From Thiocapsa bogorovii (lineage in GTDB: Bacteria; Pseudomonadota; Gammaproteobacteria; Chromatiales; Chromatiaceae): a stretch of DNA of 64,000 nucleotides. Shown one piece after another: positions 4,302 through 23,563 of the stretch. Position 1 is the first letter of the stretch. Each line of letters starts with the position of its first letter. The notes under the pieces were generated by a model. That model worked only from the letters and a program-made list of their open reading frames with translations. It did not search any database and was not told where the DNA came from. The translations under genes and the position numbers were made by a program. The stretch is taken from assembly GCF_021228795.1 (NCBI RefSeq), contig NZ_CP089309.1, positions 3,596,001 to 3,660,000 on the forward strand, in the 5' to 3' direction.

Positions 4302-4486
4302 TGCGTCGTCACGCCTCGCCGAGCGGCCCCTACGGCCCTCGAAACAGGATGCTGCGGCTCTCCGACCGCTTCCGGGGGGTCAGATGCCGTACATCGGCCC
4401 GCCGGCCCGAGCCGGCACGGTTTGCGCAATGATAGCCCCATCGATGCCGATTCATGAACTGCCGGGGATGTTCTGCGACGGCCGAG

Positions 4487-6839
4487 TCAAGACAAGAGCC
4501 GAACGACCGCCTCCGGTGGCACCGCGGGGCTAAAGAGATAGCCTTGCGCGCGGTGGCAGCCGACCCCGAGCAGAAACCGCCGCTGAGCCTCCGTCTCGAC
4601 CCCTTCGGCTAGGACATCGAACCCGAGGCTGTTGCCGAGCGTCGTGATGGCAGTGACGATGGCGGCACTGGCGGGGTCGTCCGGGAGACCGACGATGAAG
4701 CTCCGATCGATCTTGAGTGTGTCGAACGGCAGCCCCTTGAGATAGGCGAGCGACGAATAGCTGGTGCCGAAATCATCCATCGCCAACGAGATCCCCAGGT
4801 GTTTGAGGTCGCAGAGGAGTCGCTGCGCGTCCTCGCGCAGATCCATGACGAAGGTTTCGGTGAGCTCGAGCTCGAGGCGTTCGGCACCCAGTCCGGTCTC
4901 GTGCAGGATGGATTCGAGCGTCCGTGCGAAATCGCTGCGCTGGATCTGAACACCGGAGACGTTCACCGCGATGCGCCCGAACGGGATCCCTGCCGCCTCC
5001 CATTCCCGGGCCTGGAGGCAGGCACGTCGCAACACCCATGCGCCGAGGGGGATGATGAGCCCGGTTTCTTCGGCCAACCGAATGAAGCTGTCAGGCAGGA
5101 CCATCCCGCGCTCGGGATGTTGCCAGCGCACCAACACCTCCAGCCCTGTCACCCGTGAGGTTCCGGTGTCGACCAGCGGCTGATAGTGCAGGCGCAGCTC
5201 GTCGCGCTCGATCGCGCGGTTGAGCTCCGAGGTCAAGGTGACGCGCTCGCGCGCGTAGTCCGTCAGAGCGCGTGCATAGTGGCGGTAGGTGTTGCCGCCG
5301 GCCTCGCGGGCTTGATAGAGGGCGGCATCGCAGTTCTGCATCAGCTCGGAGACGTTGGTGCCGTCCTCGGGATAGACGGCGATCCCGATGCTCGCGCTCA
5401 TGAAGAGCTCGGCGGTCTTGACCATGAAGGGCTTGTTCAGACTCTCGCGGACGCGCTCCGCCATCAGTGCGGCGCGGGTGTCGATGTCCTCGTCGCCCTC
5501 GATCAGCAGGGCGAGCTCGTCGCCGCTCAGCCGTGCCACCGTATCGTCGATGCGCACCAGATCGCTGAGGCGCTTGGCCACCTCCCGCAGCGCGATGTCG
5601 CCGACCGCGTGTCCGAGGCTGTCGTTGATATGCCGGAAGCCGTCGAGGTCGACCAGGAGCATCCCGACGCGGGCTCGGCTCGTGCTCGCGCGCAGCAGGG
5701 CCTGCTCCAAGCGGGTACGGAACAGCAGCCGGTTGGGGAGGTCGGTGAGCGGGTCGCGGTGCGCCAGGCGTTCGATCTGGGCCTCGGAGCGCTTGATGTC
5801 GCTTAGATCCGAGAAGACCCCGACATAATGTGTCGTTTTCCCCAGTTCCGAGCGCACGGCGTTGATGTTGACCCACTGCGGATAGATCTCGCCGTCCTTG
5901 CGCCGGTTCCAGACCTCGCCCCGCCAGTGACCACGGTCAAGCAGGGCCCGCCACATCGCCTCGTAGAAGGGCTGCTCGTGCCGTCCGGACTTGAGCAGGC
6001 TCGGGTTGCGGCCCATCACCTCCTCCGGGCGGTAGCCGTTGATCTCGGTGAAGGCCGGATTGACCGCGATGATCGACGGGGTCGTATCCGTGATGACGAC
6101 GCCCTCGCTGGTGCTCTCGAAGACGGCCGCCGAGAGACGCAGGCCCTCTTCTGCGGTCTTTCGCTCGGTGATGGTCCTGAAAGGCGCCTTCCACGTGGGT
6201 AATTCGACCCGCGACGTCACGCGCCGCGGCACCGATGGTTCTGACCCAGACCCGCCGGCCCCTCGCCGTGATGATCTGGAGCTCCTCGTCGTAGCCGACA
6301 CCCTCCCGCGCGCAGGCCGTGAAGACGCGCGTAATGCGCTCCCGCCATTCGGGGGCGTAGTAAGAGATGCCATCCTCGACGCGCACCACCGTGCCGGGCG
6401 GCTCCTCGTGGATTCGGCAGACCTCGTCCGACCAGGTCGCCCGGTTGGCGAGGAGGTCGACATCCCAGCCGCCGATCCGCGCGAGGTTTGCGGCCATCCG
6501 GATCAGACGGTCACGTTCGCTCAGCCTGGCCTCCACGAGCTTGTGCTCGGTGACGTCGCGCAGGTAGACCACGGACACCTCATGACCGTCCATGGCCATC
6601 TCGACGCAGCGCATGTCCGTCGACACGACCCCGCCTGCGCGCGGAATCTCGATCTCGGTCGGCTCGTCGGGGATCACGATGAAGCCGAAATCGGCACCCA
6701 GCAAGGCATCGACCGGACGAGCGAACAGAGACGAGGCGGCGGCATTCGCGTAACGGATGATACCGTGCCGGTCCAGCATCAGGATGGCATCCGATGCCAG
6801 TGCGACGATGCGCTCGAAGTCGACGCGGCCCGAAGCCAT
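4487..6839 (-). pseudogene. PAS-PAS-PAS-GGDEF-EAL protein interrupted by a +1 frameshift
   Basis: The N-terminal part begins MASGRVDFERIV at 6839, where the ATG overlaps the kaiB stop, and carries two PAS domains up to THVEGAFQD. The reading frame then shifts and the continuation (ITERKTAEE, a third PAS, GGDEF, EAL) lies in another frame to 4487. An extra G at 6173/6174 explains the shift: deleting it gives a continuous protein of about 783 residues. The cyclase motif is SGDEL and the EAL motif is EVL, with DDFGTSYSS, LKIDRSF, AEGVE and QGYLF retained, so a phosphodiesterase role is more likely than a cyclase role. It is the last gene of the Che/Kai operon. The shift may be a real mutation or a sequencing error; a shortened GGDEF-EAL product from an internal start is possible. 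Confidence 0.78.
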
Positions 6840-7120
6840 CAATCGACCCTGAGATCGAGACCGACCAAGACCTTCTCTCGCTCGGATAGGTCGCCGACGA
6901 CCCGTCGCATCGGCAGCGGCAGCTTCTTGATGACCACGGGGGTGGCGAGGATGCGCTCGTCCTCGGCGAGTTGCGGACGCTGGAGGATGTCGATCACCTC
7001 GACCTGGATCACCAGATCCGGCGTGGCGACCTCCACGGCGAGCCGTTCCAGGTTTTCTAAGGCGCGATTGGCTGCGGGCGTGCGCCCGGCGATATAAAGC
7101 CTCAGGAGGTGCGTCGTCAT
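6839..7120 (-). CDS. kaiB: KaiB-family clock protein
   Basis: A 93-residue thioredoxin-fold KaiB protein beginning MTTHLLRLYIAGRTP, with the family signatures LEVIDIL-like (VEVIDILQRP), LATPVVIKKLP and a VVGDLS C-terminal segment. In cyanobacteria KaiB binds phosphorylated KaiC and sequesters output partners. KaiA is absent here, as in most proteobacterial kaiBC loci, so a true circadian oscillator is not implied; hourglass or stress roles are known for such pairs. Its ATG overlaps the kaiC stop and its stop overlaps the next start, which points to translational coupling. Confidence 0.93.
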   Translation of the reverse strand: MTTHLLRLYIAGRTPAANRALENLERLAVEVATPDLVIQVEVIDILQRPQLAEDERILATPVVIKKLPLPMRRVVGDLSEREKVLVGLDLRVD

Positions 7121-8856
7121 GTGCGCCCTCGTCCGACCGCGGCGCGCGTGCGCTCGACACCCGCTAGGCGGCGCTCGATTTGGGCGACTTGACGGTCGAG
7201 ATCGGCCGTCTTGACCTCATGCTCGGCCCGCGCCAGACGCTCGTTGGCCGCCTGGATCTCGCTCAGCTCGGCGCGCATTTGGCGTGCGCGCTCGAGGTCG
7301 AGGTGCAGTTGGGCCATCGTCTCCTCGTCTTCCGCCTGACGCGCCATGCGCGCGGTGCCGTAGACGATGCCGCCCTCGCCGAGATAGGGGTCGACGATCC
7401 GCAGCCCGTCGCTGCCCATCCGAAACTCTTTGACCTGGTCCGATGTGGGCAAGCCGCGGGCCTTCACGACCGTGATCAGGCGGTTCATCTCACCGTTGTT
7501 TTCGTGTCGGCGCAGCTTGATCCAGACGTCGATGATGGAGGAGACATCCAGATGACTGACGCCCGAGCTGTCGTCGCCGAGCAGCTCGGTCGCCACCGTG
7601 GTGACGCCTTCTTCCTTGATCAGATAGAGCAGGCGCAGCAGCATCTCCTTGGCGACCGGATCGCGGCTGCGACCGGCCAAACCGCTGACCGGGTCCAGGA
7701 TGACGAGCGCCGGGCGATGCTGTCGCACCGAGCGGATGACGCGCATCAGATGCTCCTCCAGACCCAGCTCCACCGCGCGAACCGGCTGAAGCAGCAGGGC
7801 GCCGAGCCCGTCGACCGCGCGGCTGTCCGTGCGGTGATAGCGGGCGAGGTCGATGCCGATACTGTGCTGGTTGCGGATCAGCTCGTCCAGGCTCTCCTCG
7901 AAGCTGATGTAGAGGGTCGACAGCCCGGCCTCGCAGGCGGCGCGGGCAAAGCTGCAGGCGATGCTCGTCTTGCCGGTGCCGGCTTGGCCGGACAGCAGCG
8001 TGATCGAACCCCTATAGGGACCTTGGCCGCCCAGCATGGCGTCGAGACCGGGGATACCCGTGGAGAGACGCGCGTCGGACACCTTGGCGCTGAGGACGGA
8101 GCCGGTGACCGGGACCAGGAAGATCCCGCCGCGATCGAGCAGGAAGGGATTTTCGTTGGAGCCGTGCGCCGCACCTCGGCGTTTAACCACGCGCAGTACG
8201 CGCGTCATCACCCGGTTGTTGACCTCTTGGGTGAGGGCGATCACGCAATCGGCGATATAGTCCTCGAGTCCGTAGCGGGTGCTGAAGTCGGCATATTCGC
8301 CGACCGTAATGAGGCAGGTCACGGCGCGATCGCGGATCCAGTCGAAGACATGCGTCAGCTCGCCGCGCAGGCTGGGCAGATCGGCAAAACCGGTTTCCAT
8401 GCCGTCGACGGCGTCCATCACCAGACGGGTCGCACCCAGACTATCCAGCGCGAAACCGATGCGGGCGAGGATAGCGGTGAGCTCGATGGTCTCGCCGACT
8501 AGCACATCGTTGCGATCCGGACGCATGTCCAGGATGCGCAGACGTCCTTCGGCCAGATAGCGCCGGGCGGGAAAGCCGAAGCCCTCGGCGTGGCCGAGGA
8601 GCGCTTCCGGGGCCTCGTCGAAGGTCACGAAGACCGCGGTCTCGCCTGCCGCGATCCCTTGGCAGAGAAAGGTCAGCGCGATGACGGTCTTGCCGGTGCC
8701 CGCCGCGCCGCGCAGCAAGGTGGGTCGCCCGGACGGGAGACCACCTTGGAGGACGAAGTCGAGCCCTTCGATTCCGGTGGGGACCGGATGCCTCTGCATG
8801 GACTCTTCGGCCGAGTTCGATGCGGGGACGCCGACGTTGCTCCTGGGTATGGTCAT
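7117..8856 (-). CDS. kaiC: KaiC-family double RecA/P-loop ATPase
   Basis: 579 residues from the ATG at 8856 (MTIPRSNVG); an upstream in-frame ATG at 8880 is an alternative. Two RecA-like domains are clear: CI with GAAGTGKT and a catalytic-loop FDE, and CII with GQAGTGKT and ISFEES. At the position of the cyanobacterial Ser431-Thr432 autophosphorylation pair the sequence reads VSSIID, giving two serines. The C-terminus extends into a charged coiled coil of about 70 residues (LDLERARQMRAELSEIQ onward), unlike the short tail of cyanobacterial KaiC, so it is KaiC2/KaiC3-like. The reading frame stays open upstream into an EAL remnant, so a fused longer protein starting at 9393 cannot be excluded. 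It sits between the chemosensory genes and kaiB in one operon. Confidence 0.9.
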   Translation of the reverse strand: MTIPRSNVGVPASNSAEESMQRHPVPTGIEGLDFVLQGGLPSGRPTLLRGAAGTGKTVIALTFLCQGIAAGETAVFVTFDEAPEALLGHAEGFGFPARRYLAEGRLRILDMRPDRNDVLVGETIELTAILARIGFALDSLGATRLVMDAVDGMETGFADLPSLRGELTHVFDWIRDRAVTCLITVGEYADFSTRYGLEDYIADCVIALTQEVNNRVMTRVLRVVKRRGAAHGSNENPFLLDRGGIFLVPVTGSVLSAKVSDARLSTGIPGLDAMLGGQGPYRGSITLLSGQAGTGKTSIACSFARAACEAGLSTLYISFEESLDELIRNQHSIGIDLARYHRTDSRAVDGLGALLLQPVRAVELGLEEHLMRVIRSVRQHRPALVILDPVSGLAGRSRDPVAKEMLLRLLYLIKEEGVTTVATELLGDDSSGVSHLDVSSIIDVWIKLRRHENNGEMNRLITVVKARGLPTSDQVKEFRMGSDGLRIVDPYLGEGGIVYGTARMARQAEDEETMAQLHLDLERARQMRAELSEIQAANERLARAEHEVKTADLDRQVAQIERRLAGVERTRAAVGRGRT

Positions 8857-8880
8857 GGCGACCGGTGATTCTCTTCTCAT

Positions 8881-9393
8881 AGCCCTGTTTGAAATGTTAT
8901 CGGGAGTCGGGTTCGGGCTCGGATCCGCCGACAGGCGCTCGCCTGTATCCGTCACGGACCAACTCTCCAGGAAAGCACTTGTCGCCAAGGATCGACCATA
9001 CAGGTAACCCTGCCCTTCGTCACAGAATTCGTTGCGTAGGAAATCATGCTGCGCGCGTGTCTCAATGCCCTCGGCGATGACCCCGAGTCCGAGACTGCGC
9101 CCCAAGGCGATCACGGCGCGGGCGATCGCCTCGTCGTCGCGATCCTCGCCGTGCCGCTCCACGAATGACTTGTTCCCATTCGGTCGATTCAGGGGAAGCC
9201 GTTTCAGGTTTGGCCAATTGCAGCGCTTGGCCGTCGATGCGATGCCGGCCAGGATCTCGTCGGCGAGATCGAAGCGTCCGCTGTCGAGGGCCTCGGCCGC
9301 GCGCACGCGCACGCCATCGACAGTGTTCTGTCCGATTGGCGGCAGGGTGGCACTGCTCGCGCTTCCCGGGTTGCCGTTGCGACGGTCTGTCAT
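8881..9393 (-). pseudogene. Decayed gene: short N-terminus joined to C-terminal EAL fragment
   Basis: An ATG at 9393 overlaps the stop of the upstream cheW (ATGA), as expected for a functional operon gene, and opens MTDRRNGNPGS. After about 75 residues of unrecognised sequence the frame reads a recognisable EAL-domain tail: KSFVERHGEDRDDEAIA, VIAEGIET and DEGQGYLYGR. The EAL domain's N-terminal three quarters, including the EAL motif and DDFG, are missing, so no phosphodiesterase activity is possible. The frame then runs without a stop into kaiC. It looks like a gene that lost its centre by deletion; an alternative is a true in-frame fusion to KaiC. Confidence 0.6.
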
Positions 9394-9953
9394 GGTCCCT
9401 GTCGCCGTTGGTCGATCTCTGTGCGATCGCGCATCATCCGTGCGGGCGCCGCGATGCATGAGCCGACGGGCGTCGTGCAGGGGTCTCGCGGGAGCCGCAG
9501 AGGGTCGAGCAGGATCGCGAGGTCGCTCGCGTTCGTCGCCGAGAGTGCGACGAGCCCGCGTACGCAGGGCAGTGCAGACAGCGTCTCCATGAGTGCGGGG
9601 AGTGGATGGATCGCCTCGGCCGGTGCGCGCCGCAGCGAGACCGGCTCCTCGATGCGCACGTCCGTGGTTTGTGCCCCGTCCGACGCTCCGCCCTGCGACG
9701 TGTGCCTGAATCGGAGCAGACGCTCGCGCGTTCCATCCGTGTGGGCCGATGCCGGGTCGGGTCCACGCGCGAGGCCGAGCAGATCGGCCAATGCGGGCGC
9801 CCGTATGTCCGGCGTCTCGGCGAGATCGGCGATGCCCCGAATGCGCTCGGAGGCAACCGCGAACCTCAGCGCGCCGACGCTGAAGACCACCAAGTCGATC
9901 CCGGCGTCGTCGCCCTCGTTTCGAGGCTCTTGTCTGCACCCCATCCGCGTCAC
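9390..9953 (-). CDS. CheW-like coupling protein (first copy)
   Basis: 187 residues. The CheW core is visible in DLVVFSVGALRFAVASERI and the following ADLLGLARGP, and near the C-terminus in VRGLVALSATNASDLAILLD. CheW proteins link chemoreceptors to CheA. A charged insert of about 60 residues separates the two halves, making this a divergent copy. The start is GTG at 9953 overlapping the stop of the upstream cheW, with an ATG nine bases further in as an alternative. Two different CheW proteins are also typical of Wsp-type clusters (WspB and WspD). Confidence 0.82.
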   Translation of the reverse strand: MTRMGCRQEPRNEGDDAGIDLVVFSVGALRFAVASERIRGIADLAETPDIRAPALADLLGLARGPDPASAHTDGTRERLLRFRHTSQGGASDGAQTTDVRIEEPVSLRRAPAEAIHPLPALMETLSALPCVRGLVALSATNASDLAILLDPLRLPRDPCTTPVGSCIAAPARMMRDRTEIDQRRQGP

Positions 9954-10498
9954 CGCTGCTCGGGCACTAGGGTCTGAAACACCCGATCCAGATCGAGCAG
10001 CATCACGACGTGTCCCTGATGCTCGAACACCCCGGTTGCGAGCCCGCGCAGGGGCTCGGGCAAGCTGTCTGGCGGGGCTTGGATGGACGCCTCGGTCACG
10101 TCCAGAACGTCGACCACCCGATCGACCCGCAAGCCGCTGCGCACCTGCGTGCCCCGGGCGAGCAGGATGGCCGAGCGACGCGCGGACGGGGCATGCGTCA
10201 GGCCGAGCAGATCGCCGAGGCGGACCACCGAGGCGATATCGCCGCGGACATTGATGACGCCCTCCAAGGCCGGTGGGCAGCCGGGGACGAAATGGATGGT
10301 CGTGAGCGGAAGGATTTCCACCAACACGCGCGCCGGGAAGGCCAGCAACGCCTCGCCGACGACGAAGATCACGAGCTTGACCTTGGCGGTCTCCACCTCG
10401 ACGACCTGTGCGCCGGCTCCGCGTCGCCGATCCAGGATCATGTCCAGCTCATCGTGATCGGACGCGATGGTTTCCGATTCGGTTCGCTCAAGATCCAT
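9950..10498 (-). CDS. CheW-like coupling protein (second copy)
   Basis: 182 residues with a canonical CheW fold: KLVIFVVGEALLAFPARVLV, INVRGDIASVVRLGDLLGL, GLRVDRVVDVLDV and a C-terminal HVVMLLDLDRVF. An acidic N-terminal extension of about 40 residues precedes the domain. The ATG at 10498 overlaps the end of the diguanylate cyclase gene by 11 bases and is preceded by GGGGAC. Expected role: docking CheA to the receptor of this operon. Confidence 0.9.
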   Translation of the reverse strand: MDLERTESETIASDHDELDMILDRRRGAGAQVVEVETAKVKLVIFVVGEALLAFPARVLVEILPLTTIHFVPGCPPALEGVINVRGDIASVVRLGDLLGLTHAPSARRSAILLARGTQVRSGLRVDRVVDVLDVTEASIQAPPDSLPEPLRGLATGVFEHQGHVVMLLDLDRVFQTLVPEQR

Positions 10499-12275
10499 GG
10501 GATGTCCCCGTCGATTCAGGCGCAGGTTCGGGCAAGGCGTCTTCCGCCGCCGCGATCTCGACCCGGTTGCGACCGCCGTTCTTGGCTCGATAAAGCGCCC
10601 GATCGGCGGCTTCGGTCATGGCGTCCGGCGTGTCGAAGGTCGGAAAGTCCGACACCCCGACGCTGAAGGTGCAGCGGAATTCCTGTCCGTCGGAGAAGAA
10701 GGTGACATTCCAGAAGCTCGTGCGCAGGGCGTCGAGGATACGCTTGGCCTGCTCGGCGCCCACGCCGTTGAGGACCACCGCGAACTCCTCTCCGCCGTAT
10801 CGTCCGACCAGGTCGTCCTCGCGCAGGCGCAGGCGCAGCGTCCGGCTCAGCGCGATCAGGACCTGGTCGCCGGTCGGATGGCCGTAGGTGTCGTTGACCG
10901 CTTTGAAGTGATCGACGTCGATCATGGCGAAGCACAGGGGCTTCTCGGCACGGCGCGCGTTCGCCACGGCGACCCCCAGGAACTGCATAATCGCGTTGTG
11001 GTTGAAGAGTCCCGTCAGACCGTCGCGGACCATCAGGGAGTGCAGGATGCGCATCCGCTCGGCTCGCAGACCGACCTCCGCGATCAATCGGGCCGGTTCG
11101 ATCGGTTTGGTCAGAAAGCCGTCCGCCCCGACCGCGAGCGCCTTGTGCTGGCGCTCCACGTCGGTCTCGGAGGAAACATAGATGATCGGCAGGCTCACAT
11201 GACCCGGGATCTGGCGCAGGATCCGAGACAACTCCGGGCCGGAGCAGTCCGGCATGTACATGTCCATCAGCACGAGATCGGCATCGAAGGTGTCGAGCAG
11301 ACCCAGCACCTGTTCCGGATCGCTCACCGCCTTGGCGACCATGCCCGCCTCTTCCAGTACCGTTGCGTGGAACTGGGCCAGCTCGCGGTCGTCGTCCACC
11401 ACCAGGACGTTGATGGGCTCGGGCGGATGCGGGTTGGTGAGACGATCGAGGAATTCCAGCAGCTCGACCATCTTGATCGGCTTGGTGCAGTAGGCGTTGC
11501 CGCCGGCGCGCACCGCCTGGAGGCGCCCGCCGAAGTCGTCGCGGCAAGAGATGAAGATGCAGGGAATCGTCGCCTGCTTCCCGCTTCTGAGCTCGGCCAG
11601 CATCCTCGGCCCGGCGTTCTCGTCCTCCGGGAAAACGACGTCGAGGATCAATGCCGACGGGCGTTCGGCTTCGACTGCCTCGCGCAGATCGGGGAGGTTC
11701 GTGAAGGCCCGCACGCGATAGCCGAAGCATCCGAGCTGACCGGCCAGTTGCGCGGCGAGATCGGGGTCGTCGTCGCAGAGATAGACCATCCGCTGGCTGC
11801 GATCCGCCGATTGTCCGGGGCGTGCGTCTGACGGTTGTCCGGCTGCCGGCTCGGACCGAGGGAGCTCGAATCCGGGAGCCACGTCGGGGTCCACCTGCAC
11901 ATCGGCGGCCAGCGCCAGCGCGTCCAGATCGTCCATCATGCGTTCGAGCGCGTTCGGCAGCGCGGCCTCGACCGGAGCGCCCGAGTCCATGGCGTTCCGC
12001 ACGGTCTGCTCGGCGGCTTTGGCGGCGTCGCTGATCTGTCGGAAGCCGAAGGTGGCGCCCGAGCCCTTCAGGGTATGGAAGAGGATGTAGAGCGCGTCGA
12101 GATGTGCGTGATCGATCTCGCCCGGGCGCAGCTCGGCGACGGCGCGGCGGGCATCGGCAAGGCGCCCCGGCAACTGAGACAGAAAGGATGCGCGCAGCCG
12201 CGCCTTGCGGATCTGAAAGGATTCGGCCTTGTTCGGTGCTGCGGGCGCAGGGGCGTTTCCCCGTTCGGCGACCAT
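10488..12275 (-). CDS. Hpt-REC-REC-GGDEF response regulator, diguanylate cyclase
   Basis: 595 residues from the ATG at 12275, which has GAGGAC five bases upstream and starts 10 bases after the cheY stop. Order: Hpt domain at about 30-120 with FHTLKGSGATFGF, REC1 at about 160-280 (phospho-acceptor in LILDVVF), REC2 at about 290-405 (VLMDMYMPD, LTKPI) and GGDEF at about 420-585. The cyclase motif is an intact GGEEF, and an RxxD inhibitory site (REDD) lies five residues before it, so an active, product-inhibited c-di-GMP synthase is expected. It occupies the place of WspR, the output of Wsp systems, but with an extra Hpt and REC that would allow phosphorelay. This is the most likely output of the CheA in this operon. 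Confidence 0.93.
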   Translation of the reverse strand: MVAERGNAPAPAAPNKAESFQIRKARLRASFLSQLPGRLADARRAVAELRPGEIDHAHLDALYILFHTLKGSGATFGFRQISDAAKAAEQTVRNAMDSGAPVEAALPNALERMMDDLDALALAADVQVDPDVAPGFELPRSEPAAGQPSDARPGQSADRSQRMVYLCDDDPDLAAQLAGQLGCFGYRVRAFTNLPDLREAVEAERPSALILDVVFPEDENAGPRMLAELRSGKQATIPCIFISCRDDFGGRLQAVRAGGNAYCTKPIKMVELLEFLDRLTNPHPPEPINVLVVDDDRELAQFHATVLEEAGMVAKAVSDPEQVLGLLDTFDADLVLMDMYMPDCSGPELSRILRQIPGHVSLPIIYVSSETDVERQHKALAVGADGFLTKPIEPARLIAEVGLRAERMRILHSLMVRDGLTGLFNHNAIMQFLGVAVANARRAEKPLCFAMIDVDHFKAVNDTYGHPTGDQVLIALSRTLRLRLREDDLVGRYGGEEFAVVLNGVGAEQAKRILDALRTSFWNVTFFSDGQEFRCTFSVGVSDFPTFDTPDAMTEAADRALYRAKNGGRNRVEIAAAEDALPEPAPESTGTSHGS

Positions 12276-12285
12276 GGTGTCCTCG

Positions 12286-12636
12286 TTAAATCCCGGCGAC
12301 GGCTGCCGGCAAGGTGGCCTCGAGCGATGCATCCTTCGTCAGGCAGGCGGCAAGGCCGGGCACCTGCGCGCGCAACGGCTCCGGGTCGTCCCCGGTCAGC
12401 AGAACAAAGGGTGTGGCGATACCTCGATCGCGCATCTCCCGAAACAGGTCTAAACCGCTCAAGAGCGGCATGTGCATGTCCGAGATGATCAGGTCGAATC
12501 CGTTCTGCGCATCGCCGAGGGCCTCAAGGGCCTCGATGCCGCTCTCGACAAGCCTGCAGGTGTGTCCCTCTGCATCCAGAATGGCCTCGGCCATGGCTCC
12601 GGCGAAGGGGTCGTCGTCGACGATCAAGATACGCAT
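12286..12636 (-). CDS. Stand-alone CheY-like receiver
   Basis: 116 residues, a single REC domain: MRILIVDDDPFAG acid pocket, phospho-acceptor Asp in LIISDMHMP, a Thr in FVLLTGDD and a C-terminal Lys in CLTKDAS. No output domain. It lies between cheA and the Hpt-REC-REC-GGDEF gene, so it is a candidate phosphate sink or adaptor for CheA. Confidence 0.9.
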   Translation of the reverse strand: MRILIVDDDPFAGAMAEAILDAEGHTCRLVESGIEALEALGDAQNGFDLIISDMHMPLLSGLDLFREMRDRGIATPFVLLTGDDPEPLRAQVPGLAACLTKDASLEATLPAAVAGI

Positions 12637-12664
12637 AACAAGAAGTCCTAAAAACTGTGTGTGA

Positions 12665-14989
12665 TCAGCCGAGCAGATTCCGCAAAGTGTCGACTAGATT
12701 CGATTGGTCGAAATCGCCTTTGACGATGTAGGCGTCGGCGCCGACCTGGATGCCCCGCTGTTTGTCCTCGGGGGTCTGACGCGAGGTGACGATAATGATC
12801 GGCGTGGAACGGCATTTTTCGTTCTCGCGCAGCTTGGCGGTGAGTGAAAAGCCGTCCAACCCCGGCATCTCCACATCCGTCAGAATCGCGTCGAAGCGCC
12901 CGCCCACGGCCTTCTGCCAGCCGTCGAGACCGTCTTCGGCCAGGGTGACGCGGTAGCCGGACGCCTCCAGGACCTCCTTCTCGATCTCGCGCGTGTTCAG
13001 CGAGTCGTCCACCACCAGGACGCGCTGGCCCTGTTGTCCGGCGTGCCGCGGCGTCGAATCCTTCACCGCCGCCTTGATCGCCTCGCCGCGGATGCGTCGT
13101 GCCGCGTCCAGCAGGGCAGGGGCCTGAAGCAGGCTGACCAGCGCGTTGGTGCCGGTGACGACGACGCCGCCGACTAGGCCGCCGAAGGCACCGCGGCCGC
13201 GCATGTGCTCGGGCAGCGGCTTGAGGACCATGTCGCGTTCGTCAACGAGCTGATCTACGACCAGCCCCAGCTTCGCCTGGCGCACCCCGATGACGACGAC
13301 CAAGAGCGCCTCTTCGTCGACTCCGGGCCGCCGTCGTGCCGCCGGCTCGGCCGGCAAACCCAGAAGATCGGCCAGGCGAATGAGGGGGACCAGCTCGTTG
13401 CGAAGCACGACCGCCGGGCGTCCGGCGACCTGAATCGTCTCGGAGCGGGATGTGCGGATCAGCTCGGAGACGTGCGGCGCGGTCAACCCGAAGCAGTGCC
13501 CGGCCGTTTCGAACAGCAGGATGCGCATCACCGCCAGAGAGAGCGGGAGCTTGAGCGTCAGGGTGGTCCCGGCGCCCGGCCGAGAGTTGATCGAGACCGA
13601 TCCCTGCAGGTCGTCGGTGATGGCGCGCTTGACGACGTCCATCCCGACGCCGCGACCCGAGACCTCGGTGATCATGGTGCTGGTGCTGAAGCCGGGTTGG
13701 AAGAGGAGGTCGGCGACCTGCTCGTCGGTCAGCTCTTGCCCGGTCGCTTGGATGGCGGCGGTCTCGATCAGGCCCTTTTGGATTGCCTTCTCGAGGATGC
13801 GCGCGCGGTCGAGTCCGCGGCCGTCGTCGCTGATGGCGATCAGCACGGCACCGCCTTCCTGACGTGCCGCGAGACGAATCTGCCCGAGCGCCGGCTTGCC
13901 GGCGGCCAGACGCTCCTCGGCCGACTCGATGCCGTGGTCGACGGCGTTGCGCACCAGGTGGACCAATGCATCGCTGAGATGGTCGATGATCTGGCGGTCG
14001 AGCTCGATCTCGCTGCCGTCGATCTCGCACCGGATTTCCTTGCCGAGCGAGCGCCCGAGCTCGCGCGCCACCCGGGCGATCGGGTCCAGGACCGTACCCA
14101 GAGGCAGCATCCGCATGCCGAGTGTGCGGTCGTTGAGCTCGCCGACGAGCCGCTCCTGATCGAGCGTCAGGTCGCGCAGATCGAGCGTGAACCGGTGCAG
14201 CGCATGGGCCAGCTCTGCCGACGCGGATCCCGTCTCGGCGACGGCGCGGGCGGCAAGCGCCCCGGCCGCGGCATCGAGCCGGCGCGCCTCGCCCAGTACA
14301 TGACGGAGCCGCGCCTGATTGGAGACCATCTCGCCCATCAGTTTGACCAGTGCGTCGAGCTTGTCCGTGCGTACGCGCACGCTCTCGGGTGCGCGGATGA
14401 TTGGTGGGAACTCGGCGCCGGTCGGTCGGGGGGGCTTTGGCGTCGGGTGTGTCGCGGATGAGGTCGCGGGCGAGGGCTGCGCGGGGTCTCCGGGCGGGAT
14501 TCGGTCTTGGAGGGCGCCCGGCGTTGCGTGAGCATCGACAGCGGTCGCGACTGCGGTTTCGCCAATGGCCGGGGGACCCGGTTCCGACCAATCACCTGCA
14601 GCGGCCCGGGTGAGCCGCTCGCATAGGGCCTGATCGGGTGGTCCGGAGGCCGCGCCCGCGCCGGAAGCGGCGACCTCTTCGATCATTGCGCCGATCGCAT
14701 CGACGGCACGCATCAGCAGTGCCGCGAGTGCCGGGTCGGGTTGGATCTTGTCTTCGCGTAAGACCCCGAGCACGTCTTCGAGATGGTGTGCGGTCTCGGC
14801 GATGCTCGCGAGCTTGAGCATCCGCGCAGACCCTTTGATGGTGTGGGCGGATCGGAACAGGGCGTCGATGCCGTCCCGGCCCCCATCGCCCGCCGTCCCG
14901 AGCCTGGCGAGTCCGGTTTCGAGTCGGGCGATATGCTCGCGCGCCTCGTCGACGAAACGGCCGATGAATTTGGTGATGTCGAGTGCCAC
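12665..14989 (-). CDS. Hybrid CheA histidine kinase with C-terminal receiver
   Basis: 774 residues. Hpt at about 1-110 with the phospho-His in SAHTIKGSARML, a proline-rich linker at about 145-200, dimerisation helices (LVKLMGEMVSNQARL), a HATPase domain with LVRNAVDHGIES, SDDGRGL and GRGVGMDVV, a CheW-like domain at about 485-620 and a REC domain at about 645-770 with phospho-acceptor in ILTDVEMPG. The attached REC is characteristic of WspE/FrzE-type kinases rather than flagellar CheA. It would phosphorylate CheB, CheY and the GGDEF regulator. The start follows the cheR stop by 10 bases. Confidence 0.94.
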   Translation of the reverse strand: MALDITKFIGRFVDEAREHIARLETGLARLGTAGDGGRDGIDALFRSAHTIKGSARMLKLASIAETAHHLEDVLGVLREDKIQPDPALAALLMRAVDAIGAMIEEVAASGAGAASGPPDQALCERLTRAAAGDWSEPGPPAIGETAVATAVDAHATPGALQDRIPPGDPAQPSPATSSATHPTPKPPRPTGAEFPPIIRAPESVRVRTDKLDALVKLMGEMVSNQARLRHVLGEARRLDAAAGALAARAVAETGSASAELAHALHRFTLDLRDLTLDQERLVGELNDRTLGMRMLPLGTVLDPIARVARELGRSLGKEIRCEIDGSEIELDRQIIDHLSDALVHLVRNAVDHGIESAEERLAAGKPALGQIRLAARQEGGAVLIAISDDGRGLDRARILEKAIQKGLIETAAIQATGQELTDEQVADLLFQPGFSTSTMITEVSGRGVGMDVVKRAITDDLQGSVSINSRPGAGTTLTLKLPLSLAVMRILLFETAGHCFGLTAPHVSELIRTSRSETIQVAGRPAVVLRNELVPLIRLADLLGLPAEPAARRRPGVDEEALLVVVIGVRQAKLGLVVDQLVDERDMVLKPLPEHMRGRGAFGGLVGGVVVTGTNALVSLLQAPALLDAARRIRGEAIKAAVKDSTPRHAGQQGQRVLVVDDSLNTREIEKEVLEASGYRVTLAEDGLDGWQKAVGGRFDAILTDVEMPGLDGFSLTAKLRENEKCRSTPIIIVTSRQTPEDKQRGIQVGADAYIVKGDFDQSNLVDTLRNLLG

Positions 14990-14999
14990 GACGAGGTGC

Positions 15000-16511
15000 T
15001 CAGGCCGCGGTTTCGGCGAGACGGGCCAGGTGCGTCTCGCAAAGGAAGCGCAGATCCTTCACCGACAGGAGCGAGGGCAGCGCGCCCGTGTTCTGCATTG
15101 CGAGTGCATCGTTCTGCAGCTGGCGCAGCACGATCCGGTACTCGCGTCCTGCCGGCACGGGCTCGCCTCTCTGGCGATAGATTTCGGCGAGCTGGAAGTG
15201 GGCTCTCCAGCAGCCGGGTTTGTCGTACACCACCCGACGCAAGGCGCCGATCGCTTCCTGTGTGTCGCCGCGCAGAAGTGCGCAGCGCCCGAGCAAGAGG
15301 AGCGCTTCCAGTGACCAAGGATCTTGCGTCAAGGCCCGTCGTGCGGCCGCTTCCGCGCTGGCCGTGTCGCCGCGTTCGAGCAGCAGATGGGCTTGGAGCG
15401 AGAGATGCTCGGCGGCGGCGTCCCGGGGATCGCAGAGCGGGCCGAGATGGTGAAGCGCCTCTTCGAAACGCTCGGATCGGGCCGAGGCCAGGGCCCTCTC
15501 GTAGCGCTCTCGATCGACCGTGTTCGTGACCGGCGCGATCGAGCCGGCTGTTTCCGGGCGAAGGTCGATCGAGCCCGGATCACGTCGATCGGCCGAGTCG
15601 GATCGCACTGGGTCGGCTCGCGGCGGGCGGGCGCACGGCCGCGTCTTCCCGGCCGCGGCCGAGCGCCCACCGAGTCCCGGGTCCGCGATCCCTTGCAAGG
15701 GCTCGACCGGGGCCCGCTCGAACAGGAAGACGCCGTCCAGCGCCACCAGGCGCATCAGTCCGAAGTCGTTGGCGAGTGTCTCCGAGGCACCGACGATCAG
15801 ATGACCACGGGGCTTGAGCAGATCCCGCAACCGCGCGATGACCGCCTTGCGGGTTGTCGGGTCGAAGTAGATCGACACATTGCGGAAGAAGATGATGTCT
15901 TGTTCCTGCATCGCCGGCGGGTAGTCAGGCGCAAGCAGGTTCCAGGACATGAAATCGACCTGTTGGCGGATCGCCGCGTCGACGCGTCGGTGCGTCCCGT
16001 CAAGCGCCGAGAACCAGCGATCGCGAAGCTCGGCGGGCAGGGCCCGAAACGCGAACGGGCTGTAGACCGCCGTGCGGGCGCGCTCGAGTGCGGTTTCGTC
16101 GACATCGCCTGCCGTGATCCTAAACAGACGCCCCGCGAGATCGCCGTAACGCTCGCGCAAGGCGATGGCAATCGAATAGGGTTCCTCGCCGGTGGAGCAT
16201 CCCAAGGAGAGAATCCGGATCGGATTGCCCTTCTCGGCTTGGGTCAGGCGCGCCGGCACGAGCCGCTCCACGAGCAGATCGAGATGATCTGGCTCACGGT
16301 AGAAATAGGTCTCCTTGACCGTCAGCAAGCTGGTCAGGTGCCCGAGCTCGACCGGATCGGCCGCGACGGATTTCAGGTAGGCGTCGATCGATCCCGCGGC
16401 GGTTGCCGTCATCCTGCCCGCGAGGAGGGATCGGAGTCGTTCATCCGCGTCCGGGCCGAAGTGCAGCCCGAGGCGATCCTTGACGAAACCCTTGAAGGAC
16501 TGGAGGGGCAT
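15000..16511 (-). CDS. CheR methyltransferase with C-terminal TPR repeats
   Basis: 503 residues starting at the ATG at 16511, which overlaps the cheB stop (TGATG). CheR N-terminal helices are followed by the SAM-dependent methyltransferase domain with LSLGCSTGEEPYS and FFRNVSIYFD (usually FCRNVLIYFD). Residues from about 340 form TPR-like repeats (ALLLLGRCALLRGDTQEA and neighbours). The CheR-TPR arrangement is that of WspC and FrzF. It should methylate glutamates on the receptor encoded two genes upstream. Confidence 0.93.
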   Translation of the reverse strand: MPLQSFKGFVKDRLGLHFGPDADERLRSLLAGRMTATAAGSIDAYLKSVAADPVELGHLTSLLTVKETYFYREPDHLDLLVERLVPARLTQAEKGNPIRILSLGCSTGEEPYSIAIALRERYGDLAGRLFRITAGDVDETALERARTAVYSPFAFRALPAELRDRWFSALDGTHRRVDAAIRQQVDFMSWNLLAPDYPPAMQEQDIIFFRNVSIYFDPTTRKAVIARLRDLLKPRGHLIVGASETLANDFGLMRLVALDGVFLFERAPVEPLQGIADPGLGGRSAAAGKTRPCARPPRADPVRSDSADRRDPGSIDLRPETAGSIAPVTNTVDRERYERALASARSERFEEALHHLGPLCDPRDAAAEHLSLQAHLLLERGDTASAEAAARRALTQDPWSLEALLLLGRCALLRGDTQEAIGALRRVVYDKPGCWRAHFQLAEIYRQRGEPVPAGREYRIVLRQLQNDALAMQNTGALPSLLSVKDLRFLCETHLARLAETAA

Positions 16512-17602
16512 CAGGCAACCCCGGCGCCGATGGCAGCGCCACAACCAGCCAGCATGCAGAGCTTGTCCGCGATGAGATCGAGCGGCAGCGTCAGCTGCAC
16601 GCCGCCGGCGAGGATCGCCTCGCGGTTCATCCCGAAGATGACGGAAGTGGCTTCGTCTTGGGCGATGGTTGTCCCGCCGGCCTTCGCGAGCGCGAGCATC
16701 CCTTGTGCGCCGTCGCGCCCCATCCCGGTGAGGATCACGCCGACCGCATCGCGCCCGACCTGCGCCGCGACACTTGTCAGCAACCGATCGCAGCTCGGGC
16801 GATACACGTCGGACTCGGCGCGCTGCTCCAAGCGGATGCGCCGGCCGGCACCGAGCGTCATGTGGGTGATCGAATCGGCGATATAGACCCGCCCAGGCAG
16901 GAGCGCCTCGCCCTCGACGGGGATCTTGACCGGCAGCGCGCAGAGTTGATCCAACCAGTCGGCCATTGCCACGGCAAAGCCATCGGAGATGTGCTGTGCG
17001 ATCAGAACCGGGGCCGCAAAGTCTGCGGGGAGGTCCGGTAGGATTCGAGCGAGGGCCTGAGGCCCGCCGGTCGAGGAGGCGATGGCAACGACAGGCGAGC
17101 CGGGTCGGCTCGGCGGTGTGTCTCTTCGCGTCTCAGGCCAAGCCGAGAGTGTCGGATCGTCGGGCACGTCTTTGACGACGAGTGCGCCGTTGCGGCGGAT
17201 ATGGCGGATCACCGGAATCCGGGCCAGGATGCGCAGGCGCGACGCCAATCCCGCTCCCTCGTCGAAGGTCGGCTTGCGCGCGGCCTCGAGTGCACCGCGT
17301 GCCACCGCTGCCATTGCGTTGGCGGCGTCGGCCAGGTCGGAAAGGACCAAGATCGGCACGGCATGACGAGACATGATCTCCTCGATCGCCTGCATCCCGT
17401 CCATCTCGGGCATCTGAAGATCCATGGTGACGACGTCGGGCTTGAGTGCGAGGGTCTTTTCGACCGCCTCCCGACCGTCCGCGGCTTCGCCGCAGACGAC
17501 AAGCCCCGGCGCGGTTTCGATCAACGCGCGAATCAGGCTCCTTGCGGAGCGGCTGTCGTCGACCACCAGGACCCGTACGGGTGGCCTCGAGTGCTCGGTC
17601 AT
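16511..17602 (-). CDS. cheB: CheB receptor methylesterase
   Basis: 363 residues: a REC domain at 10-130 (VRVLVVDDSRSARSLI, VVTMDLQMPEMDG, VLSDLA) and a CheB esterase domain at about 165-350 with the catalytic triad Ser in ASSTGGPQA, His in IAQHISDGF and Asp in TGMGRDGAQG. Opposes CheR and may also deamidate the receptor. The ATG at 17602 overlaps the receptor stop. In the Wsp system the equivalent is WspF, whose loss switches c-di-GMP synthesis on. Confidence 0.94.
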   Translation of the reverse strand: MTEHSRPPVRVLVVDDSRSARSLIRALIETAPGLVVCGEAADGREAVEKTLALKPDVVTMDLQMPEMDGMQAIEEIMSRHAVPILVLSDLADAANAMAAVARGALEAARKPTFDEGAGLASRLRILARIPVIRHIRRNGALVVKDVPDDPTLSAWPETRRDTPPSRPGSPVVAIASSTGGPQALARILPDLPADFAAPVLIAQHISDGFAVAMADWLDQLCALPVKIPVEGEALLPGRVYIADSITHMTLGAGRRIRLEQRAESDVYRPSCDRLLTSVAAQVGRDAVGVILTGMGRDGAQGMLALAKAGGTTIAQDEATSVIFGMNREAILAGGVQLTLPLDLIADKLCMLAGCGAAIGAGVA

Positions 17603-19554
17603 GAGGACGCGCTCGACCCACCGGATGCGGCAGCCGGCGTGTTTGCTCCTTCGAGTACGAACTGATCCAGGCTGGACTGCAGCGCACCGGCGAGCTCGTT
17701 CATGTCCCGCGCGATATCGGCAATCTGGCGCACGGCACCGGCGGTTTCCGAGCTGGCGGTAACGATCTCGCGCAAGGCGACCACAACCTGACTACTGGCG
17801 GTGCGCTGTTGTTGCGTGGAGAGACTGATCTGCTGGGCGGAGGTCGAGGTCTCGCTCGCCGCCTCGACGATGGCTTGGAGGATGTCGGCCGTGCTGGCCG
17901 AGTCCGCGATTCCCTGCTGGATCCCGGTGGAGCCTTTTTCCGAGCTGATCACCAGCCGGTTGATCGACTCCTGGATCTCGGCGACCTTCCCGGTGATCTC
18001 TCCGGTGGATTCGGTCACCGAGTCGGCGAGCCGGCGGATCTCGGCGGCGACAACGCCGAAGCGTTTTCCGGCTTCACCCGCAGAGGATGCCTCCAAGGCA
18101 GCGTTGAAGGCGATCAACTTGGTTTGATCGGCCACCGTATCGATGATCTGCATGATCTTGGAGATCTCCTTGGAGCGGGTGCCGAGCTCGAGGATCTCGT
18201 TCAACGCCGTCTGATTGTCCTCGCCGATCCGTCGCATCTTCTCCACCAGACGCTGCATGGCATCCGAGCCGCGAAGGCTGTCGTCATAGGTCCGACCGGC
18301 GATGTTCACGACGGACTCGGAGTATTCCGCGATCTGGGTCGAGGAGGCGGAGAGCTCTTCCATCGTCGAGGTGATCTCGGCCACGGAGGCCGACATCTGA
18401 CTGGAGGTCGCGGCCTGTCCGTCGATCGCCTGCGCGATCTCGCGTGATGCCGCGTGGACCGAGAAGGCGGTCGTCTCCACGCCCGTCACCAACGCATTGA
18501 GATGCTCGCGCATGCCCGCGAGCGCGCGGGCGAGGTCCGCCAGCTCGTCCTTGCCGTCGATCGCGTCGCCACCGCTCAGATCGCCATTGGTCACACGATC
18601 GATCTCGTTGGTCAGCCGGCGGATCCGTGCGGTCATGGCGTGGGCCGTGATCAACGAGATCCCGATACTGAAGAGCGCGACCAGCACGCCGATGATCATG
18701 GCCTGCATGCGCGTCTCGTCGAGGGCCGCAACGTGCCGGGTGCGATCCATCGCTACCTCGACCACGCCGAGCGGTTTGCCCGAATAATCCGTAATCATCT
18801 CCGCGTAGGCCGCGGCCGGAGTTGTTCCGATCTCGATTTCCGCGACTTGGGGCTCTCCGGCGAACGCAGCGCTCAGCGCGTCCGGGCCGAGGAAGGGCTG
18901 ACCTTCATGGGTACTTGCAAAGGTCTCCGCCTCGCCGTCACGGAGAATATAGAGCGCCGCATCGACGCCGTAGCTTGCTTTGAAGTCGTCGAAGAAGTCT
19001 TGTCCGAACGACATGCCGAATTCGACCGAGCCGAGGTGGCGCCCCTCTCGGAACACCGGCACCACGCCGCGAGCGCCGAGACCCGCAACACCGAGCTCCA
19101 ACCCGCGGTGAGGCTTGCGATCGCGGTTGGTATCCACCACGGACTGACGGAAGCTCGAAAGGTCGTCGCCGAACTTCTCCAGCATGTGCAGCCGCAGAAA
19201 AGACGTGGCCGGGGCGGTGTGGAACTGGAACTGAACCGCACCGAAGTCGCGCGCGAGGGCCTCGAACGGCGGGTGAAGCTGCTCGACGAGCCAGCCGCGA
19301 TCGCCCGCGGCGAAGCGCGCCTGGACCTCCGGCATCTCGGCGACGAGGACGCTGAGTGCCTCCGCCAAGTCGACGTCATCGCGGATGCGTGCCTGAACCA
19401 TTGCCGCGAACTGACGCAGCTCGGACTCCTCCGAATGACGGCTTAGGGTCTCGAGATTGTGCAGGCTCACGAGCGTGAGCGTGGTGATGGCCAGGACAAT
19501 TGCGGCGCCGATCACCAGGAGAATGTTGGCCCACAGACGGATTTGCTTGAACAT
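17599..19554 (-). CDS. Methyl-accepting chemotaxis protein with periplasmic Cache sensor
   Basis: 651 residues from the ATG at 19554 (MFKQIRLWANILLVIG); an in-frame start 81 bases upstream exists. A first membrane helix at about 9-30 and a second at about 300-322 enclose a periplasmic sensor containing MLEKFGDDLSSFR and RGVVPVFREGRHLGSVEFG, which resembles the dCache_3 family. HAMP follows at about 325-375 and the signalling domain at about 390-650, with the hairpin tip region FNAALEASSAGEAGKRF and VVAAEIRRLADSV. No C-terminal CheR-tethering pentapeptide is seen. As first gene of the operon it is the input of the whole Che/Kai cassette, in the position of WspA. Confidence 0.93.
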   Translation of the reverse strand: MFKQIRLWANILLVIGAAIVLAITTLTLVSLHNLETLSRHSEESELRQFAAMVQARIRDDVDLAEALSVLVAEMPEVQARFAAGDRGWLVEQLHPPFEALARDFGAVQFQFHTAPATSFLRLHMLEKFGDDLSSFRQSVVDTNRDRKPHRGLELGVAGLGARGVVPVFREGRHLGSVEFGMSFGQDFFDDFKASYGVDAALYILRDGEAETFASTHEGQPFLGPDALSAAFAGEPQVAEIEIGTTPAAAYAEMITDYSGKPLGVVEVAMDRTRHVAALDETRMQAMIIGVLVALFSIGISLITAHAMTARIRRLTNEIDRVTNGDLSGGDAIDGKDELADLARALAGMREHLNALVTGVETTAFSVHAASREIAQAIDGQAATSSQMSASVAEITSTMEELSASSTQIAEYSESVVNIAGRTYDDSLRGSDAMQRLVEKMRRIGEDNQTALNEILELGTRSKEISKIMQIIDTVADQTKLIAFNAALEASSAGEAGKRFGVVAAEIRRLADSVTESTGEITGKVAEIQESINRLVISSEKGSTGIQQGIADSASTADILQAIVEAASETSTSAQQISLSTQQQRTASSQVVVALREIVTASSETAGAVRQIADIARDMNELAGALQSSLDQFVLEGANTPAAASGGSSASS

Positions 19555-19738
19555 CTGGACGCGTCTCTTATGTGGAAGCGAGCGCCCGATGTCGGTCCGG
19601 CGCGGAAAATACTTAGAAAGTGTAGCTGAATTCAAATCATCGACGGTGAGAACTCGCGAGCAATCCCGCGCGGCTTTTCGGCCGCGCTTTGGGTAGACTC
19701 ATGCTTTTTATTCCTCGCCCAGACTTTGGAGTCACGGC

Positions 19739-21244: not shown

Positions 21245-21388
21245 AGCTGCATGCTGCCAGCGGCGTCTTGTGCCTCGCTCGGCTCGGCACAATCCCGCGG
21301 TACGCTGATCCGCAGTTAGCGCTGGCGACAGTAAGCGCAACAGGCATCGGCGGAGCAGCGCGGCCTAGATTTTCAAAAGCTTTCGAAT

Positions 21389-21475
21389 CTAAACCGCGTC
21401 AGCTCCGACAGTCGTTGTTGCGGCCGTCGTCGATCCAATTCACAAACCAGACGTGCGGCTCCGGACGCGGTTTAG
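21389..21475. repeat. 87-bp inverted-repeat element 1
   Basis: Perfect 12-base inverted arms (21389-21400 and 21464-21475, CTAAACCGCGTC and complement) enclose 63 bases. The right arm contains the stop codon of the leftward dsrC-like gene. Two more elements of almost the same length occur at 28951-29037 and 35081-35168. Between malQ and this element (21366-21391) there is also an imperfect TAGATT...AATCTA palindrome. Confidence 0.7.
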
Positions 21476-21813
21476 CAGGAATGGCAGTAATACCGCGGCA
21501 ACCCGGCAAGACGACAGGCCTGCTTGCAGCCTCCGTTCGGAAAGAGTCCTTCCAGGTGCTTGCGCGAGCAGGGTGTATGGGGTGAGACATGCGCGCCGAC
21601 GGTCTTGATGATGACCTTCGGGGAGGGCGGCATCTCGTGGGTTGCGTAGTACTCGCGAAGGAAATTGATGACCGCCCAATGGCATTCGGTCAGGCTCAGA
21701 CCTTCCTCTTCGGCCAAGGCCGTCGCAACCGACGGCTCCCAATCGTCGAAATAGGCCAAATGGCCCTGCTTGTTGACCTCGAGCTGCCGTCCGGCGATCT
21801 GCATGGCTGACAT
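21472..21813 (-). CDS. DsrC/TusE-family sulfur carrier protein, cysteine-rich paralogue
   Basis: 113 residues from the ATG at 21813, chosen because GGAGGAG lies eight bases upstream. DsrC/TusE family: GHLAYFDDWEPSVA, LTECHWAVINFLREYY and KQACRLAGLP. DsrC carries sulfur as a trisulfide between two C-terminal cysteines in dissimilatory sulfur metabolism. Canonical DsrC has Cys-X10-Cys with a penultimate Cys; this protein ends QACRLAGLPRYYCHSC, giving X9 and X12 spacings, plus extra Cys in TPCS and NGGC. It is therefore a divergent paralogue, possibly regulatory or in another sulfur-relay step. It is not next to dsr genes in this window. Confidence 0.88.
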   Translation of the reverse strand: MSAMQIAGRQLEVNKQGHLAYFDDWEPSVATALAEEEGLSLTECHWAVINFLREYYATHEMPPSPKVIIKTVGAHVSPHTPCSRKHLEGLFPNGGCKQACRLAGLPRYYCHSC

Positions 21814-21908
21814 TGCGTGCTCCTCCACCCTGCGGGTGGCCTGATACTGCTTTGGTGGTTTTATGCCTGTCCGATGGCTTTTGGTCCGTGTTCGGGGTCG
21901 TTTCGGAC

Positions 21909-21939
21909 GTATCACTCGTCCGACTAGACAATTGTCAAT
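21909..21939 (-). promoter_or_regulatory. Possible sigma-70 promoter of the dsrC-like gene
   Basis: On the minus strand a perfect TTGACA (21934-21939) is followed after 18-19 bases by TGATAC/GTGATA (about 21909-21915). The -35 overlaps the palindrome GACAATTGTC (21927-21936), which could be an operator. It is about 95 bases upstream of the dsrC-like start. The spacing is slightly long. Confidence 0.35.
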
Positions 21940-22038
21940 GCAATTTCGCCTAATCATGGACCGAAATCCGGCAGATGCAACCGGATCCAGATCAACGGGA
22001 GGCCAAATTTCGATCCGAATCGCTCGCTCGTCGCTCGA

Positions 22039-23400: not shown

Positions 23401-23563
23401 GGGTACGATCGTGATGTCGAGGGGTTGATCGAAGGGCTTATTTGAACCGCAAAGGCGCGAAGGGCGCAAAGGCTTTCAATCTGTCGGGTGATCGCGCGTC
23501 GGGCGGGAATCTTGCTCCTGACGGAAGCGCGTATCGGAGCCACGTCGCAGCGCGCACAAAAGT

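Follow-up and report, generated by a model that had tools for sequence, protein, structure and literature searches.

The window analysed here is a stretch of 64,000 nucleotides (positions 3,596,001 to 3,660,000 of NZ_CP089309.1) from Thiocapsa bogorovii BBS, a purple sulfur bacterium whose genome is a single contig of 5,649,927 bases. On its minus strand, a chemosensory (che) cluster of the cyclic di-GMP (c-di-GMP) type is tightly packed with the timer genes kaiC and kaiB and with genes for c-di-GMP turnover, as a preliminary description had reported. We use PGE for the PAS-GGDEF-EAL gene after kaiB, PGE2 for the decayed one before kaiC, and PGE_up for the GGDEF-EAL gene past PGE. Genomes and loci used for comparison carry G and L labels, respectively. 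In the order of reading, the genes are as follows.

17599..19554, minus strand: receptor, a methyl-accepting chemotaxis protein (MCP) with dCache_3, HAMP and MCPsignal domains (Pfam)
16511..17602, minus strand: CheB, receiver (REC) and methylesterase (Pfam)
15000..16511, minus strand: CheR methyltransferase with a TPR tail (Pfam)
12665..14989, minus strand: CheA-REC hybrid kinase with Hpt, dimer, HATPase, CheW and REC domains (Pfam)
12286..12636, minus strand: CheY-like single receiver (Pfam)
10488..12275, minus strand: Hpt-REC-REC-GGDEF regulator (Pfam, PDB search)
9950..10498, minus strand: CheW1 adaptor (Pfam)
9390..9953, minus strand: CheW2, a divergent CheW-like protein (hhalign, AlphaFold2, Foldseek)
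8857..9393, minus strand: PGE2 remnant, in frame with KaiC (Pfam EAL positions 159-235 only; intact in five relatives of the genus)
7117..8856, minus strand: KaiC with two ATPase domains, a Ser-Ser pair and a C-terminal extension (Pfam, NCBIfam, PDB search)
6839..7120, minus strand: KaiB (Pfam, PDB search)
4487..6839, minus strand: PGE, PAS-PAS-PAS-GGDEF-EAL, with a frameshift at 6173-6174 (Pfam, comparison with relatives)
285..4301, minus strand: PGE_up, PAS-GAF-GGDEF-EAL, by descent the tail of the che cluster (Pfam, tree)

This gene make-up is well supported. The twelve leftward units described before keep their order and, by Pfam, their domains, except that the second CheW has no Pfam match and that PGE_up had been missed. 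Gaps of about 28 bases at most had been claimed throughout. They are indeed no longer than 28 bases within the MCP-CheW2 and KaiC-PGE stretches, but cheW2 and kaiC are 533 bases apart, an interval occupied by the decayed PGE2, and 185 bases separate PGE from PGE_up. Overlaps of 4 bases were found at MCP/CheB, CheW1/CheW2 and KaiC/KaiB, and the KaiB end overlaps the PGE start at 6839 (TGATG). The ATGA-type overlap said to join che to kaiBC lies between the cheW2 stop and the PGE2 start; cheW2 does not abut kaiC. Judged by the overlaps, a shared transcript is likely. When positions 4200-20000 were scanned, no consensus sigma-70 site was found (1.5 expected) and there was no terminator-like site in the cheW2-kaiC interval. 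The terminator scan gave 9 sites overall against 7.3 expected and is uninformative, and the missing signals at this junction are weak evidence for one transcript. The cluster is flanked by malQ (4-alpha-glucanotransferase), a DsrC-like gene and a trypsin-PDZ protease gene (window 19739-23469). The table of the genome paper gives 0 for BBS under 'Motility and chemotaxis' (PMC10892978), despite which the che cluster is present.

The chemosensory half had been called Wsp-like. The Wsp system of Pseudomonas (wspABCDEFR) is made up of an MCP, two CheW-type adaptors, CheR-TPR, CheA-REC, CheB and a GGDEF regulator. All of these components are found in the window, with CheW2 counted as the second adaptor by profile and fold. 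However, the order MCP-CheB-CheR-CheA-CheY-cyclase-CheW-CheW differs from wspABCDEFR (PMC8552884), the regulator is Hpt-REC-REC-GGDEF where WspR is a REC-GGDEF fusion (PMC3447774), and the window has a separate CheY, with GGDEF-EAL and kai genes next to the cluster. We reject membership in Wsp on the order of the genes and the architecture of the regulator. The cluster is like the ACF clusters with CheR-TPR, which have multidomain response regulators including GGDEF and Hpt (PMC3447774); CheR-TPR and a multidomain response regulator are both present here. This likeness is by CheR-TPR and the regulator, and the accessible text of that paper describes no kai genes in such clusters.

CheW2 matched no Pfam or NCBIfam family, and the CheW Pfam family matched none of its 16 aligned orthologues. 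When its alignment was compared with that of CheW1, the HHalign probability was 95.0% (E 4e-8). Its AlphaFold2 model had a mean predicted local distance difference test score (pLDDT) of 75.6 and a predicted template modelling score (pTM) of 0.66, and the first 18 Foldseek matches of the model were CheW and CheA chains with TM scores of 0.39-0.50 by query length. Profile comparison and predicted structure thus support a CheW-like fold. For CheW2, the ratio of nonsynonymous to synonymous substitution rates (dN/dS) was 0.58 in one comparison, looser than for kaiC, kaiB and the catalytic part of PGE. The regulator keeps a GGEEF motif with an RxxD site upstream, which we take to be an I-site, and the closest solved relative of its C-terminal half in the PDB search was PleD. 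In the window genome a single CheA was detected and the flagellar gene product FlhA was not found (type IV pili were not searched for); the output is therefore probably c-di-GMP rather than swimming. Thiocapsa cells have been described as non-motile (PMC8767323).

KaiC passed the cut-off of NCBIfam NF006799 (508.6 against 408) and fell below that of TIGR02655 (245.6 against 546.25). It has the traits of the KaiC2 type, two ATPase domains and a Ser-Ser phosphosite pair. KaiB scored 74.1 bits in Pfam (cut-off 27), was under both NCBIfam KaiB cut-offs (95.5 against 110; 89.8 against 145.3), and was also supported by a PDB search match. The best PDB match of KaiC was the Rhodobacter KaiC 8dba, with the Ser-Ser pair aligned. 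Rhodobacter KaiC and KaiB act together as an hourglass that is governed by the ATP/ADP ratio, and KaiC proteins of this class have a C-terminal extension of about 50 residues (PMC10076222); in the window protein the extension is present and aligned. In KaiC2-type proteins it is expected to take the form of a coiled coil. The likeness to the R. sphaeroides pair covers the Ser-Ser sites, the extension, the presence of KaiB and the best PDB match; the difference is that KaiC is about 40% identical to that of Cereibacter sphaeroides. Against four relatives, dN/dS was 0.12-0.20 for KaiC and 0.15-0.24 for KaiB, and against two relatives it was 0.12-0.16 for the C-terminal part of PGE (CheB against L036 was left out of the set). 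Thus kaiC, kaiB and the catalytic part of PGE are under purifying selection (dN/dS 0.12-0.24).

Outside cyanobacteria, kaiC-kaiB pairs mostly have a histidine kinase gene or a GGDEF/EAL gene downstream of them (PMC3164672), and for the kaiCBB cluster of Thiodictyon, which adjoins a cyclase gene, a role in the timing of buoyancy was proposed (PMC5944118). The window agrees with this context in its GGDEF/EAL gene directly after kaiB, which is co-inherited and, in the window strain, frameshifted, and in the Ser-Ser class of its phosphosites. It differs in that the accessible texts of the two papers do not describe such a cassette within a chemosensory operon.

The EAL domain of PGE aligns over its full length with solved EAL proteins and keeps its EAL site in the form EVL. 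The GGDEF motif reads SGDEL in PGE and SGDNF in PGE_up, so both proteins are more likely phosphodiesterases, as far as motifs can predict. The preliminary description placed PGE correctly after KaiB. PGE starts at 6839 and carries one surplus C at 6173-6174, absent from L036, L037, L182 and L041; open reading frame (ORF) 4487-6463 is therefore only its C-terminal part in the correct frame. The BBS genome was sequenced by Nanopore with Illumina correction (PMC10892978), so that a real mutation and a residual sequencing error are both possible. The low dN/dS beyond the frameshift argues that the break is recent or such an error.

The EAL remnant noticed before kaiC was confirmed, and is a decayed PAS-GGDEF-EAL gene. 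Its N-terminus is fused by an internal deletion to the last third of the EAL domain, as read straight from the sequences of the window and its relatives. Five relatives (G071, G102, G023, G146 and G149) have an intact PGE2, whereas G139, like the window, has a remnant. The reading frame of the remnant enters KaiC without a stop (ORF 7117-9939). The ATG at 9393 is in frame with KaiC (7117-9393), so that translation from it could yield a KaiC extended by about 180 EAL-derived residues.

Within Thiocapsa, a CheA orthologue was found in 9 of the 11 genomes searched, and the CheA dimer domain occurs once in each of the nine; G148 has a second CheA-like match (35% identity). All eight che proteins were matched in each of the eight loci fetched besides the window, with MCP orthologues at 72-91%. 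These counts come from tblastn, as longer overlapping frames hide some genes, for example CheB in L056, L170, L179 and L180. Kai genes follow che in seven of the nine che-bearing genomes (window, G071, G139, G102, G146, G023 and G149); in the first five of these, one uninterrupted frame encodes KaiC. This recurrence confirms that the che/kai block of the window is real beyond chance. In G023 KaiC is split, and CheR and CheA are broken too; this assembly (10.4 Mb) is perhaps error-prone. G148 has che without kai. FlhA was found in 1 of the 11 genomes, G148, and not in the other ten, where, again, type IV pili were not searched for.

The frameshift in PGE and the deletion in PGE2, together with losses in G123, G149 and G139, might mean that the Kai/phosphodiesterase block of the window strain is without function and on its way out. 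However, both Kai proteins are intact and have low dN/dS, and the selection still visible beyond the frameshift of PGE speaks against long decay. We consider this explanation improbable.

Elsewhere in the family, CheA orthologues (E 1e-120 or better) were found in 22 genomes of other genera among 146 searched, and 14 of these 22 loci were fetched and examined. MCP, CheB, CheR, CheA, CheY, Hpt-REC-REC-GGDEF and CheW1 were present in all 14 (in L176 and L177 as partial alignments and in a different order), and CheW2 in 10. KaiC and KaiB were in none of the 14. Conservation of the che-kai linkage in related genomes therefore holds for most of the genus and is not supported beyond it by the 14 loci fetched. 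In G033, G104 and G027 a GGDEF-EAL gene comes next after CheW2, and malQ lies beside che in these three as well.

Conversely, in G044 and G032 KaiB and PGE lie after a KaiC orthologue (69-73% identity), and about 19 kb of sequence gave no match to che. A scan of genome contigs for KaiC gave 579 confirmed relatives, of which the best 80, several on short contigs, were examined. Among these were KaiC of Ectothiorhodospira (63-64%), of an Ectothiorhodospiraceae metagenome-assembled genome (MAG; 61%) and of Thioalkalivibrio (51%), all without che in the available flanks; in Thioalkalivibrio L066, PGE comes next after KaiB.

A tree built from 30 pairs of GGDEF-EAL domains places the window PGE with KaiB-linked PGEs from the genus, from G044 and from G032 (100/100), and joins this clade to the Thioalkalivibrio PGE (100/98). 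PGE_up groups with the post-che GGDEF-EAL genes of G033, G104 and G027 (100/100). The KaiB-linked genes are not one clade (3 changes on the tree), and the long branches L042 and L051 are placed unsurely. Because che recurs without kai, kaiC-kaiB-PGE recurs without che and the tree separates PGE from PGE_up, the most likely course is that a che/c-di-GMP cluster already existed when the kai cassette was inserted into it. The simplest history would be a single insertion between cheW2 and PGE_up that brought in kaiC-kaiB-PGE, and perhaps PGE2 as well, with losses afterwards. These comparisons make the two-module origin well supported.

A second, divergent kaiC-kaiB allele was seen at the same site in L058 and L182 (G146) and in L041 (G023), where most flanking genes are alike. 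The alleles of G146 and G023 are 92% (KaiC) and 96% (KaiB) alike, and about 76% and 70% identical to those of the window. Between G146 and the window, MCP, CheA, CheW1 and the GGDEF regulator are 85-91% identical, CheR 80% and CheW2 67%. Synonymous divergence (dS) is 0.81 for kaiC and 0.84 for kaiB, against 0.30-0.40 for the MCP, CheA, CheW1 and regulator genes. The divergent stretch ends near the PGE start in G146 and inside the PAS part of PGE in G023. By these distances, kaiC and kaiB were evidently exchanged later, in place and as a unit, in G146 and G023.

This exchange bears on whether KaiC or KaiB might bind CheA, CheY or the GGDEF regulator and gate the signal directly. Co-location is the sole support for such binding. 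The che loci without kai keep the same Che protein set, and the divergence between the two kaiCB alleles greatly exceeds that of most neighbouring Che proteins. Direct Kai-Che coevolution is not supported, nor is direct gating, which we consider highly improbable.

We also considered a general che-kai system. Outside Thiocapsa, kaiC had a multi-gene che set as its neighbour in 1 of the best 80 loci of the contig scan (L068), in 1 of 20 phylum neighbourhoods (L200; 25 other genomes had a match, and 20 of them gave one neighbourhood each), and in none of 24 further loci of the family of strain STM3843, with flanks of up to 1.5 kb (L143, the same STM3843 locus, left out). By a rough hand estimate (1-2 che clusters per genome of 4-5 Mb), about one such neighbour would be expected by chance among about 100 loci. 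The two cases are thus not clearly above chance, and a general system was rejected. In Bradyrhizobium STM3843 (L068:44-6826), cheW-cheY-cheB-cheR immediately precede kaiC-kaiB and an HWE kinase gene; in MAG G263 (L200:402-13648), STAS-cheY-cheA-cheW-cheB, a kinase, two receivers, kaiB, kaiC and kinases lie on one strand. Both resemble the window in having several che genes just upstream of kai on one strand. They differ in their che sets, in kai partners that are HWE or HisKA kinases and not c-di-GMP enzymes, and in being known from one genome each. CheB-CheR-PAS fusions occur within 10 kb of kaiC-kaiB at three unrelated loci (L086:14695-17442, L125:14903-17647, L129:14149-18546); one of these fusions also has a kinase and receivers, and L125 carries a single CheB gene in addition. 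Lone MCPs were seen near kai in L131 and L198, a short MCP-like match near KaiC in L051, and a GGDEF-EAL gene immediately upstream of the KaiC gene in G283 (L199:6692-10115).

The reading that we put forward as the best is that a receptor-driven cyclase is opposed by a KaiBC-timed phosphodiesterase and that the two meet at the c-di-GMP pool, the kai cassette having been received into the che operon; we give it an even chance. A putative ACF-type che operon, widespread in the family, ends in some genera in the GGDEF-EAL gene PGE_up, and an ancestor of most Thiocapsa would have taken in the kaiC-kaiB-PAS-GGDEF-EAL cassette between cheW2 and that gene. The dCache receptor would control CheA-REC, which would phosphorylate the Hpt-REC-REC-GGDEF regulator and so raise c-di-GMP. 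KaiC would autophosphorylate on its Ser-Ser pair according to the ATP/ADP state and be reset by KaiB, and this hourglass would control how active the EAL enzyme of the neighbouring gene is, which forms the degradation arm. Receptor and timer would meet at the pool, without protein contact, and the pool may govern whether this phototroph, in which FlhA was not detected, attaches, makes slime or aggregates. With PGE frameshifted and PGE2 cut by a deletion, the degradation arm would be weaker in the window strain. The enzymes encoded agree with a joint c-di-GMP switch. The sequences themselves show the gene make-up, the descent from two modules, the purifying selection on kaiC, kaiB and the catalytic part of PGE, and the retention of catalytic motifs; the shared transcript, the phosphotransfer, the control of PGE by Kai and the phenotype are what we infer.

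Several points weigh against this reading. The window strain itself has a frameshift in PGE and a deletion in PGE2, and G149 retains only a C-terminal fragment of KaiC. G123 keeps che, with most of PGE2-kaiCB-PGE gone and KaiC and KaiB missing; therefore che does not need kai. (There, a short frame at L057:4279-5265 keeps the PGE2 N-terminus and a piece of the PGE EAL domain.) Since the block is damaged in several genomes that keep che, the sequences say that the Kai/phosphodiesterase block is dispensable to che. The exchange of kaiCB as a unit, with most che genes far less changed, argues against a close fit of Kai and Che. Gene order is conserved here anyway, as malQ beside che illustrates, and linkage alone is therefore weak evidence. 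In Synechococcus elongatus, altered c-di-GMP shifts the clock, while added c-di-GMP had no direct action on the Kai proteins in vitro (PMC13001216).

The che operon might also be a mere landing site or promoter for the kai cassette, with timer and chemosensory pathway functionally independent. This would account for the persistence of the cassette without che in other genera, for che without kai in G123, G148 and all 14 fetched loci of other genera, for the exchange of kaiCB and for the generally conserved local order. It leaves unexplained why both modules encode c-di-GMP enzymes and why the insertion sits within a packed run of overlapping genes, kept in 7 of 9 genomes. We regard it as possible, if short of probable.

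The link between Kai and c-di-GMP is not new, as it has been described (PMC3164672, PMC5944118, PMC13001216). No che-kai operon was found in the literature, as covered by titles and abstract openings, with subscription papers mostly outside reach. The earlier statement that no system of such make-up has been described stands to that extent, though not for the Kai-c-di-GMP link, and the place of the kai pair inside a chemosensory operon appears to be new.

To our knowledge, little is known of what KaiBC timers control outside cyanobacteria. In Thiocapsa, the timer genes and a GGDEF-EAL gene lie within an operon in which c-di-GMP synthesis should be driven by the chemosensory half; this suggests, short of showing it, that a simple timer and a sensor share one switch. 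We suggest, tentatively and as a somewhat unlikely extension, that a putatively KaiA-less KaiBC hourglass (the phosphodiesterase arm) and the sole detected chemosensory pathway (the cyclase arm) form a one-operon c-di-GMP switch that would time a daily alternation between dispersal and an attached or aggregated state in a presumably non-flagellated phototroph. Relatives that have lost part or all of the Kai half, and a complete genome with one detectable CheA, provide natural comparisons and a cultured phototroph in which it could be tested whether KaiBC timing acts via c-di-GMP.

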